A stretch of 64,000 nucleotides of DNA, from assembly GCA_025057975.1 (NCBI GenBank), contig JANWUV010000001.1, positions 186,001-250,000 of the forward strand, written 5' to 3'. This DNA comes from Chloracidobacterium sp. GTDB lineage: Bacteria > Acidobacteriota > Blastocatellia > Chloracidobacteriales > Chloracidobacteriaceae. The notes under the pieces were generated by a model that was given only the letters and a program-made list of their open reading frames with translations, was not told the origin of the DNA and did no database searches. The stretch's first letter is position 1; the number at the start of each line of letters is the position of its first letter. The translations under genes and the position numbers were made by a program. Below, piece after piece: positions 47,873 through 51,026 of the stretch.

Positions 47873-48931
47873 TTAGTGCCGCCGTTGCAGCATGAAGTCG
47901 GCGTAAAGATCCAATAGCGTTCGGTGCGGCCCGGGCGGCAGGACGGCCAGATGCCGCTTGGCTTCCACAAGGTACTCAATCGCTAGGTTGCGAGCGAAGG
48001 CAATCGAACCTGTCTCCTCCAAAAGCGCGATCGCCTCTGGAAGCTCGCCGTTGAGGTCACGTTTCCCCAGCAGTTCAAGGAAACGCGCACGCGCCGCTGG
48101 CCGCGCATGTTTGAGGAAATGAATGACAATCAGCGTTTTCTTACCTTCCCGAATATCCAAACCGAGCGGCTTGCCAAGGCGCAGCGGGTCGGCTTGGAGG
48201 TCTAAAACGTCGTCCCAGATTTGAAACGCCGTCCCGATTTTTTCTCCAAATGCCGCCAGCGCCGTGAGGCGCACCTCGTCGGCGTCGGCCGTCAACATAC
48301 CGAACACACAGCTGGCTCGGTAGAGCGCCGAGGTTTTACGGGCGGCCATGGCAAGGTAGTCCTCGATATCCAAATCAAAGCGCCGCTCAAAGTACAGGTC
48401 GTCAAACTGGCCGTAGCACATTTGCTTCGCTGTTTGCCCGAGAATGTGCACCATCCGCAGTGCGTGGCGACGAATGCGCGACGCTTGCTCGACCGCTTTG
48501 GCATAAAGCCAATCTCCCACCAGTAGCGCTAAGCTCAGCCCAAAGCGGGTATGCAGGGTTGGCTGTCCGTGGCGCTCCGTGCTGCCGTCCATCAAGTCGT
48601 CGTGAATGAGCGACAGATTGTGCAAGTACTCTACCGCCAGCGCTGGCGGGATAGCTTCCTCCAGCGCGCCGCCGGCCGCTTCGGCCGTCGTCACGACGAG
48701 GAACGGCCGCAGGCGCTTGCCCTTGCCCTCGAACAAGTACGTCACCGCCTGGCGCAGTTCCGGTTGTGTGACCTCCCGTAGATCATCCGCAATGGCGGCG
48801 TCCACAATGTGGGCGACGGCTTGAATTCGTTCAACCAGCGGCAGAAAGACTGCCGGCGGCGCAGCTTCGCGCGCGCTGCCCAGAGCGTTGGTGGTTGTAG
48901 CCGCCGTGTCGGCGGGCGTCGGCGTCATCAT
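47873..48931 (-). CDS. Trans-polyprenyl diphosphate synthase
   Basis: A 352-aa enzyme that condenses isopentenyl diphosphate with allylic diphosphates. It has GKGKRLRPFLVV, the first Asp-rich motif HDDLMDGS, LLVGDWLYAKA, the second motif FQIWDDVLDL (DDVLD) and a Lys in GKPLGLDIREGKKTL. Aromatic or small residues upstream of the first Asp motif set chain length, and by eye octaprenyl, heptaprenyl or geranylgeranyl products are all possible. It could serve quinones or carotenoids. The start overlaps the stop of the TPR gene by 4 nt (ATGA), and a CarH-like light regulator gene lies divergently upstream. Confidence 0.92.
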   Translation of the reverse strand: MMTPTPADTAATTTNALGSAREAAPPAVFLPLVERIQAVAHIVDAAIADDLREVTQPELRQAVTYLFEGKGKRLRPFLVVTTAEAAGGALEEAIPPALAVEYLHNLSLIHDDLMDGSTERHGQPTLHTRFGLSLALLVGDWLYAKAVEQASRIRRHALRMVHILGQTAKQMCYGQFDDLYFERRFDLDIEDYLAMAARKTSALYRASCVFGMLTADADEVRLTALAAFGEKIGTAFQIWDDVLDLQADPLRLGKPLGLDIREGKKTLIVIHFLKHARPAARARFLELLGKRDLNGELPEAIALLEETGSIAFARNLAIEYLVEAKRHLAVLPPGPHRTLLDLYADFMLQRRH

Positions 48932-49494
48932 CGGCGTCTCCCAACGGCCAATCGGCTGGGGCGTTCAAATGCTGACGCCGGAAATGGCTCCGCGGCCGGC
49001 GCGGCTTCAATTGAAACACCGTCCAACTCAGCCAGACGGCGCTCCAGACGCTGGCGCTCAAAGCGGCTGATTTCAGGAAACGCTGCCAAGTAGGCGCGAT
49101 ATGCCGCCCTTGCGCCCGGTAAGTCTCCGGCGTACTCCAGCGCGCGCCCCAGCCAGGAAGCCGCCGAACGCCGTAACTCCTGCTCCGCCTGCGCTGCTAA
49201 GGCAACCCGTCGGAAATGCAGCGCCGCCTCCGCGTAGGCGTGTCGGCGGATACACAACTCGCCGAGGGCGTAAACATCCCGCCAATCCACATTCTCACCG
49301 CTAACAGCCTGGGCAAGTTCCTGCGTCAATGTCTCCAAAAGGCGGGCCTCCGGCGATGGTCGAAGACGCGCCCACCAGCGGCGCACGAGCAGCGCCGGCG
49401 GCGTCACCCAACGGACGACCCGCCACGCCCAACGCGGATGCCATAGCGCGAGGCGTACCGCCGTCGCCGCCACTCGAACCTTAAGCGATGTCAT
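48928..49494 (-). CDS. Small TPR protein coupled to the polyprenyl synthase
   Basis: A 188-aa protein with a basic, Trp-rich N-terminus (LALWHPRWAWRVVRWVTPPALLV) that could sit on or in the membrane. TPR-like helices follow (YALGELCIRRHAYAEAALHFRR and YAGDLPGARAAYRAYLAAF). The ATG at 49494 has AGAGG 8 nt upstream; earlier in-frame codons run into the hairpin region and look noncoding. It has no catalytic motif. Its 4-nt overlap with the polyprenyl synthase gene indicates they are made together. Confidence 0.75.
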   Translation of the reverse strand: MTSLKVRVAATAVRLALWHPRWAWRVVRWVTPPALLVRRWWARLRPSPEARLLETLTQELAQAVSGENVDWRDVYALGELCIRRHAYAEAALHFRRVALAAQAEQELRRSAASWLGRALEYAGDLPGARAAYRAYLAAFPEISRFERQRLERRLAELDGVSIEAAPAAEPFPASAFERPSRLAVGRRR

Positions 49495-49604
49495 GCGAAT
49501 GCCTCTGGTGAAACAACGCTGTGGGAACTTGCCTCGCCATCCTACCCGAAGCTTATCCAGTAAACCAAGCATAACCGCACATCTACGGGCGACTTCCGTG
49601 CGGA

Positions 49605-49851
49605 AAATTTGGTTGGGGCGCTCCGAGAGGAGAGCGCCCCAATCGGTTCTCGTCGGCTTCCGCCGACTCACGAAGTTTTGACGCGCACCGCAACCCCCCA
49701 AGCGTCAAGAGACCTGAGAACTCCCCCCGGAGTCGTCGTTCCAAGCCTCCAAACAAGCGATGCGCGCCAAGCCCGTACAATCTCGCTGAGCCGTTTCTGA
49801 AGAGCTGGCGACCGTTGTTTCTTGCTTGGTCGCCGCTTGACTCGGCTCACG
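49605..49851 (-). ncRNA. Candidate structured RNA or mRNA leader with its own promoter and terminator
   Basis: About 245 nt, read leftward. It starts after a TTGACT-N17-TACTCT promoter and ends at an 11-bp hairpin. Stems visible: 49787-49793 with 49843-49849 (7 bp) enclosing 49807-49813 with 49828-49834 (7 bp); 49720-49724 with 49729-49733; 49678-49684 with 49702-49708 (7 bp); 49652-49657 with 49662-49667 (6 bp), whose loop is GGAA, a GNRA tetraloop, only on the minus strand. No protein frame in it is convincing. It could be a free small RNA or a leader that controls the TPR/polyprenyl-synthase genes about 110 nt downstream. It does not match 6S, SRP, RNase P, tmRNA, cobalamin or TPP riboswitch signatures as far as can be judged by eye. 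Confidence 0.5.
49613..49642 (-). terminator. Hairpin ending the structured RNA
   Basis: TTGGGGCGCTC (49613-49623) and GAGCGCCCCAA (49632-49642), a perfect 11-bp stem. On the minus strand it is followed by CCAAATTTT, a short T-run. It may act as an attenuator in front of the TPR gene. Confidence 0.6.
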
Positions 49852-49857
49852 GCGCAA

Positions 49858-49886
49858 AGAGTACGAAAAACGCTCAAATCAGTCAA
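49858..49886 (-). promoter_or_regulatory. Promoter of the structured RNA / polyprenyl synthase unit
   Basis: Minus-strand TTGACT (49881-49886), 17-nt spacer, TACTCT (49858-49863). The -10 box is identical to that of the tRNA-Val/Asp operon. The spacer contains the 13-mer AAAAACGCTCAAA (plus strand 49866-49878), which recurs upstream of the CarH-like gene. Confidence 0.55.
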
Positions 49887-50063
49887 GTCATTTCGCACGC
49901 TTTTTTCCGAACCCGACGCCGCCCGAAACCAAGAGGCTTGTCTAAATAGTTTGGAAAAGGCGATTTATCGCTAAGCTAGTGACTGGCGGGCGGCTTGACC
50001 GAATCGCCGAGGTCGCTTACAGTTTGGTTGGAAGAGTCCTGCCAAAAACGCTCAAAACGTTCA
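49866..50063. repeat. AAACGYTCA repeats between the polyprenyl synthase unit and the CarH-like gene
   Basis: AAACGCTCA at 49868-49876 and 50046-50054, AAACGTTCA directly adjoining at 50055-50063, and an 8/9 match (AAACGCTCT) at 50100-50108. A 13-nt identity (AAAAACGCTCAAA) is shared by the first two sites. The first copy lies between the -35 and -10 boxes of the leftward promoter. Confidence 0.5.
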
Positions 50064-50087: not shown

Positions 50088-51026
50088 GTGCCTCGCTCTA
50101 AACGCTCTGCGCCGCCTACATCGAATCAGTCGCCGACGTACTCCACTGCCGAAGTAGCGCGCATGTGGGCCGTCAGTGAGTCGTCCATCAAACGGTGGAG
50201 CGACAGCGGCGCACTGCCCTGCCTAAGGACACCCGGCGGGCACCGGCGCTTCACCTTACAGGCGTTGCTTGACTTCCAACGGAAGGCAGGCGGCGTGCTG
50301 CAGGCGGAACAAGCGAGCGCGGTGAAACTTGGCGGCCTCGATCGAGCTGTGGCGGCGCGCGACTGGGCGCAACTGCAAGCGCTTTACTACGAAGTCGCCG
50401 TCGCCGGCGACGCAGCAGCCGGCATGGCGCTGCTGGAGCGCGTTTACCAGGGCGGCGTTTCCGCCGTTGACATCAAAGAACGCATCTTGACGCCGGTGCT
50501 GCACTTGATTGGCGAACGCTGGCGGCGCGGCGAACTCAACATCTGGGAAGAACACCTCGCATCGCAGGTGACGTTGGCGGCGACGGAGCATCTCCACCGG
50601 CAAACGCCGCGCGCGCCTGCGCACGGACGGTTGGCGTTGTGTGGCTGTCCGGAGGGCGATCTACACGAAATTGCGCTGCACTTGGTGGTCGAAGTGCTGG
50701 AAACCGAAGGCTGGCGCGTAATCTCGCTCGGACCGAACACGCCGCTGTTTTCTTTCGCCGACGCCGCCCAGCGGTTCGCCCCACACCTTATCTGCATTTC
50801 GGCGACCATCGTGCACGACCTCGAGCGCCTCCGGCGCGATTATGGGCATTTCTACCGAACAGCCCGCCGACATGGCGCACGCATTGTCATCGGCGGAGCG
50901 GCCTTTGCTGACCCTCAGGTCCGCGACATTTTCATCCATGACTTTCAGGCTGCCGGACTGACGGACTTCCTAGAGTACCTTCGGCGGGAATTCCCACCGC
51001 TTCCTGGCGTGGAAAAACCGAACTGA
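50088..51026 (+). CDS. CarH/LitR-like MerR regulator with B12-binding domain
   Basis: A 312-aa DNA-binding regulator. Residues 17-60 are a MerR-type helix-turn-helix (YSTAEVARMWAVSESSIKRW and RTPGGHRRF). Residues 80-165 are a four-helix bundle, then a Rossmann-like cobalamin domain (GDLHEIAL with His193, SLGPNTPL, IVIGGAAF). The bundle carries W-x9-EH (Trp145, Glu155, His156), the mark of CarH photoreceptors that bind adenosylcobalamin in the dark and fall apart in light. Start uncertain: GTG 50088 is used, and TTG 49995 is the alternative. CarH proteins usually repress carotenoid genes; the divergent unit here includes a polyprenyl synthase. Confidence 0.87.
   Translation: MPRSKRSAPPTSNQSPTYSTAEVARMWAVSESSIKRWSDSGALPCLRTPGGHRRFTLQALLDFQRKAGGVLQAEQASAVKLGGLDRAVAARDWAQLQALYYEVAVAGDAAAGMALLERVYQGGVSAVDIKERILTPVLHLIGERWRRGELNIWEEHLASQVTLAATEHLHRQTPRAPAHGRLALCGCPEGDLHEIALHLVVEVLETEGWRVISLGPNTPLFSFADAAQRFAPHLICISATIVHDLERLRRDYGHFYRTARRHGARIVIGGAAFADPQVRDIFIHDFQAAGLTDFLEYLRREFPPLPGVEKPN

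Follow-up and report, generated by a model that had tools for sequence, protein, structure and literature searches.

A conserved structured RNA divergent from a CtMerR-type photoreceptor gene in the Chloracidobacteriaceae: a candidate light-controlled small RNA

The RNA gene and its surroundings

The window analysed here is a stretch of 64,000 nucleotides (G000:C1:186001-250000) taken from the 3.52-Mb genome of a Chloracidobacterium species. Its minus strand harbours a promoter and a structured RNA of roughly 240 nt, at about 49613-49886. Reading leftwards on this strand, the RNA promoter is followed by a 5′ hairpin, the core, a hairpin with a GGAA loop, a GC-rich hairpin, a TAGGAT element, a TPR gene and a polyprenyl diphosphate synthase gene. 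On the other side lies a divergent regulator gene (Table 1).

Table 1. Features of the locus, with positions in the window
Feature	Position	Strand	Evidence or remark
Polyprenyl diphosphate synthase gene	47873-48931	-	Pfam PF00348, E 6.5e-67; adjoins the RNA in 10/10 genomes
TPR protein gene, start ATG 49494	48928-49494	-	Not found in G007 and G009
Second promoter-like element TTGGTT-N18-TAGGAT, ahead of the TPR/polyprenyl synthase genes	49539-49568	-	TAGGAT before the first downstream gene in 10/10 genomes
Final GC-rich hairpin, 11-12 bp	49613-49642	-	Fold; at most a weak intrinsic terminator
3′ hairpin capped by a GGAA tetraloop, GUCGGC-GGAA-GCCGAC	49652-49667	-	Seen directly
Conserved RNA core, P1 to P1, ~93 nt	49678-49770	-	Models R1/R2, covariation, 95.9% mean genus identity
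P1 helix, 3′ strand	49678-49691	-	Covariation
ACGCUUGGGGGG, adjoining P1, unpaired in the model	49694-49705	-	First 11 bases invariant in 12/12 copies
P2 helix, 3′ strand, UCUCAGGUCU	49710-49719	-	Covariation
P3 hairpin with GGGG loop, UCCGGGGGGA	49722-49731	-	Invariant in 12/12 copies
P2 helix, 5′ strand, AGGCUUGGA	49740-49748	-	Covariation
P1 helix, 5′ strand, 14 bp with 49678-49691	49757-49770	-	Covariation
5′ hairpin, GAGCCG...CGGCTC with an inner stem	49788-49848	-	Predicted fold
RNA promoter TTGACT (49886-49881)-N17-TACTCT (49863-49858)	49858-49886	-	Seen directly; transcript predicted to start near 49851
Predicted photoreceptor operator O1, YGNTTTGNNCGTTTT, 15 bp, between -35 and -10 of the RNA promoter	49867-49881	-	Exact in 10/10 genomes
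Photoreceptor gene promoter TTGACC-N17-TACAGT	49995-50023	+	Promoter scan
Predicted operator O2, just past the merR promoter	50045-50059	+	Exact in 5/10 genomes; one mismatch (last base) in the other 5
MerR/B12-binding regulator, orthologue of CtMerR (8JBS/8JBT)	50088-51026	+	Divergent from the RNA

The RNA promoter, which a first-pass annotation of this DNA had already proposed, is present as claimed. Its -35 box and spacer motif were kept in all ten genomes of the family, each time with a -10-like hexamer behind them; the promoter is absent from the list of the consensus promoter scanner. The sequence of the 5′ hairpin is unconserved in the genus (58% mean identity), and several relatives fold a hairpin at this place too. 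The GNRA-capped stem had been described correctly, and in congeners a hairpin of other sequence is predicted at its site (folds read by eye). The final hairpin, proposed as an 11-bp stem with a terminator, was found as well. As a terminator it looks weak: the stem is followed by several A and C and then by a run of only four U, and the terminator scan did not call it. The U tail after the RNA is good in the family genome G007 (U7), short in G008 and weak in the genus, where a terminator is only partly supported.

The order merR-RNA-(TPR)-polyprenyl synthase was kept in 10/10 genomes. None of the other window genes that were tried occurred in the 16 kb around the module in G001, G007 and G009, and a second polyprenyl synthase is encoded elsewhere in each of the six genomes tested. 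The chlorosome protein CsmA was detected in eight of the ten genomes with the RNA and gave no match in G007, G009 or the four other members of the order that were searched. The RNA is therefore not tied to phototrophy as such, nor is the module limited to chlorosome bearers. The same photoreceptor-RNA-polyprenyl synthase module as in Chloracidobacterium also lies on record JAAFHI010000138.1 (L033), titled Actinomycetota bacterium, an organism label that looks wrong. The divergent B12 photoreceptor gene, which is the most informative neighbour of the RNA, had been overlooked in the first annotation, as had the predicted operator in the RNA promoter.

Conservation and fold of the RNA

A DNA-level search of 20 relatives recovered the region from G008 and from each of the six remaining members of the genus. 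Among the seven genus genomes, mean pairwise identity reached 95.9% in the core, compared to 58.4% in the 5′ part and 55.9% in the 3′ part. The RNA had been staked on conservation in close relatives, and the near identity of the core leaves it standing. Model R1, which was built without G006 and G007, recovered both held-out genomes with E-values that are rough owing to a short calibration (5.3e-25 and 9.1e-10, respectively). It matched 10/10 genomes of the family and none of 48 other relatives, and in the order as a whole the RNA occurs in 10 of 14 genomes. In a draw of 396 genomes from the phylum, model R2 gave six matches, all in the same family and comprising all six family members listed there, and none in the 390 other genomes. 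A wider pattern scan of contig records yielded five matching records, none of them outside the family.

Two genomes harbour two tandem cores behind a single promoter, G003 (L004 1504-1603 and 1713-1812) and G002 (L007 1501-1600 and 1694-1793); in both, the cores share one promoter with its operator and the spacers differ. An unlinked stretch of G005 (L018, around 1501-1551; G005:C1:2544325-2544375) weakly resembles the core's G-rich part (E 0.044) and was not called by R1.

The claim of a highly structured RNA was borne out by the fold. The 251-nt transcript has a predicted energy of -117.8 kcal/mol (z = -3.36), and 0/200 shuffles were as good. For the core alone, z was -4.6 in the window genome, and three divergent genomes gave -6.0, -4.3 and -3.0. 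Twelve copies of the core, 11 of them distinct, were then compared in alignment A5, which was fitted to the model structure and thus favours it: 8 of 30 pairs had changed on both sides with 98.5% of the cells paired, a level of covariation reached by 0/500 shuffles. P1 accounts for six such pairs out of 14 (98.1% of cells paired) and P2 for two of the 12 modelled (98.5%). Without fitting, a MAFFT alignment gave changes on both sides in 7/36 predicted pairs. G007, G008 and G009 contribute most of the pairs that changed on both sides; in G009 and G007 the sequence of P1 is largely rewritten, with pairing retained. Moreover, UCCGGGGGGA and ACGCUUGGGGG were unchanged in all twelve copies. Comparison thus shows an RNA whose predicted fold is a long P1 helix around P2 and P3, with two invariant G-rich segments.

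A protein-coding core was rejected, in line with the earlier statement that no credible coding frame is present: none of the frames is at once open and similar in the 12 copies, whose loops differ in length by 1-4 nt. The window copy itself is 2 nt shorter than those of congeners. An antisense transcript was rejected too, as the antisense model scored 12-17 bits, near noise, vs 59-123 bits for the sense model.

Searching Rfam and looking for compensatory changes in relatives had both been suggested as checks. At gathering score, the matches of the Rfam 15 covariance models in the window were limited to three tRNAs; with E relaxed to 10, nothing relevant appeared for the RNA region or for L004, L008, L009 and L020. 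Fold z-score, conservation and covariation exceed what chance gives, and we have next to no doubt that the RNA is real. Conservation, compensatory changes and the lack of an Rfam match also make the earlier proposal of an undescribed structured small RNA well supported. Judged by title and the start of the abstract, no paper listed by our searches of the open-licence PMC literature deals with this RNA or with RNA as an output of B12 photoreception.

The photoreceptor and its predicted operators

The regulator of the window matched the CtMerR structures (PDB 8JBS/8JBT) with 531.9 bits over 306 residues, nearly its full length, and its orthologues in G001 and G005 reached 640 and 683 bits. Above cut-off it contains PF12728/PF13411, PF02607 and PF02310, that is MerR-like DNA-binding and B12-binding domains, and the HTH domain also resembles that of BldC. 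The light signature GxxW-EH-GxxH-GxxxP, as given in excerpts of PMC11796333, is found in 10/10 orthologues. Against the CarH equivalog NF052513 the score was 75.9 bits, below the curated cut-off of 400 bits; by this score the regulator is CarH-like and not CarH proper. The regulator (E at most 1e-30; at least 48% identity to the window protein) is present in the same ten genomes as the RNA. A single further homologue among 58 genomes, that of G056, has 32% identity and lies in another neighbourhood, without the polyprenyl synthase.

CtMerR, whose structures have been solved, is described in PMC11796333 as a photoreceptor for green light which binds AdoCbl, responds to light of 530 nm and passes from tetramer to monomer. 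According to the excerpted text, its authors suggest a CarH-like control of expression and an alternative DNA site. In sections 9-11 of that paper neither an operator nor a target gene is named, and the words 'operator' and 'promoter' gave no match when the paper was searched for them.

Two candidate operators, O1 and O2, lie between the divergent genes, 133-178 bp apart across the ten genomes. In eight of these the distance is 172-178 bp, a spacing at which a tetramer might loop the DNA. The exact operator pattern has only three matches in the 3.52 Mb of its own genome, two of which fall in the RNA-merR intergenic region. The third (L066 1501-1515; G000:C2:59139-59153) sits shortly ahead of the probable start codon region of a signal-peptidase-like gene, and is probably a chance match, as no such site was noticed among the congeners' matches. 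The whole-genome scan took in the relatives except G009, whose two sites were read from L009. Matches at the relatives' L052 and L041 lie inside coding frames, and the remaining ones were read as short context.

The CtMerR orthologue is predicted to bind O1 and O2, and we consider it quite probable that it controls the RNA. Since a spacer of 17-18 nt needs no untwisting of the MerR type, it may do so by blocking RNA polymerase, as a repressor that light releases. The half-sites of the operator are 9 bp apart, compared to 11-bp repeats in CarH operators, and this spacing is a point against such control.

Possible functions and comparison with known systems

On balance we lean towards a discrete, trans-acting and light-induced small RNA under the CtMerR orthologue. 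The product of this gene of about 240 nt would serve a B12-based light sensor as its RNA partner. As long as it is dark, the AdoCbl tetramer of the CtMerR orthologue would occupy the direct-repeat-like 15-bp operator in the spacer of the RNA promoter and also the copy at its own merR promoter, keeping both promoters quiet. Green light would break AdoCbl, the tetramer would disassemble and the RNA would be made; this switch is suggested by the biochemistry of CtMerR and CarH together with the operator sites described above. The RNA may then act in trans, via pairing or protein binding, probably tuning isoprenoid or pigment metabolism. In favour of discreteness, P1 is extended in G007 and U7 follows directly, and each genome has a TAGGAT element downstream of the RNA. 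Hfq is encoded in all ten genomes. Using the complement of one invariant 10-mer, we scanned ten genomes and found no shared pairing target in a 5′ leader among the 34 non-self sites read. These sites were all those of G000, G001, G005 and G006 and one of G008, with G002, G003, G004, G007 and G009 left out.

Against a discrete RNA, the final hairpin in the genus is without a good U tract and the always adjacent polyprenyl synthase fits a role in cis. The RNA could accordingly be the 5′ part of a light-inducible TPR/polyprenyl synthase mRNA, whose aptamer-like core would control read-through or translation as an orphan riboswitch or attenuator. The first-pass annotation had also proposed a leader with an attenuator that controls these genes, and the association of the RNA with them was confirmed: on the same strand, the RNA immediately precedes the polyprenyl synthase unit in 10/10 genomes, including those that have lost other neighbours. 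Its anatomy, a P1 of variable sequence around invariant internal segments, is riboswitch-like, G002 and G003 have tandem cores served by one promoter, and the poor U tract would permit read-through into the genes. In addition, classic CarH targets are carotenoid genes, as stated in excerpts of PMC8156234. However, a TAGGAT promoter-like element separates the RNA from the genes in all ten genomes, and the P1 stem of G007 with its U7 would end the transcript, which leaves the control part of that proposal in doubt. By eye, moreover, the predicted folds offer no helix common to P1 and the final hairpin that could form a switch, and the distance from RNA to start codon is long and variable. Because the downstream genes keep a promoter-like element of their own, we regard the leader as the less likely reading, and as rather unlikely overall.

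The link to the regulator could also be wrong, in which case the spacer motif would serve another factor or simply a strong promoter, and the RNA would not be controlled by light. The unusual spacing of the motif fits this reading, but the motif is duplicated at the regulator's own promoter in 10/10 genomes and almost absent elsewhere in its own genome, and regulator and RNA share the same ten genomes. We therefore hold an error of this kind to be improbable.

We give still less credit to a protein-binding or structural RNA whose two G-rich segments would sequester a protein or a small molecule, with no mRNA pairing. The invariance of UCCGGGGGGA and ACGCUUGGGGG through deep divergence agrees with it, as does the failure to find a conserved mRNA target (a search with one segment, in which the sites of part of the ten genomes were read); the tandem cores of G002 and G003 are as in dosage-type decoys. 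A CsrB-like decoy, on the other hand, was rejected because CsrA is encoded in 0/10 genomes.

Returning to the light-induced small RNA, its fullest form is a B12 green-light photoreceptor with a riboregulator as its main output. The RNA would then represent a new family, with a second core in certain species; it would be produced only once light has destroyed the AdoCbl tetramer, and would be kept as a module with an isoprenoid gene even where CsmA is lacking. To this combination as a whole we give somewhat less than an even chance. As CtMerR has a solved structure and this locus supplies two candidate operators and a candidate output, its function becomes directly testable. If the proposal is true, RNA would join protein operons among the outputs of B12 photoreception, and phototrophic Acidobacteria would gain a new family of RNAs whose core is aptamer-like.

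Among known systems, riboswitches resemble the locus in that a conserved aptamer-like core lies upstream of the polyprenyl synthase in 10/10 genomes. Decoys of the CsrB/RsmZ type have several GGA motifs in common with this RNA, and repeated units occur here in two genomes; unlike in these decoys, the GGA motifs lie mostly in helices and a CsrA partner is absent.

PcrZ of Rhodobacter is reportedly part of a light response. It is likewise a small RNA of a phototroph, and according to the title cited in PMC7074977 it acts on photosynthesis genes. The RNA studied here, by contrast, adjoins a photoreceptor gene and also occurs in genomes without a CsmA match.

Also close are the CarH-type regulons of Thermus, Bacillus megaterium and Myxococcus, as presented in excerpts of PMC8156234 and PMC9304148. 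They share with this locus an AdoCbl-binding MerR-like regulator with the light signature motifs, an operator, here a predicted one, overlapping a promoter of the sigma-A type and an isoprenoid-related gene nearby. In contrast to these regulons, the promoter predicted to be controlled here makes a structured RNA, and the predicted operator has a half-site spacing of 9 bp in place of tandem 11-bp direct repeats. With regard to CtMerR itself, the window protein is an orthologue, and the locus adds candidate operators and a candidate target to what the excerpted parts of PMC11796333 describe.
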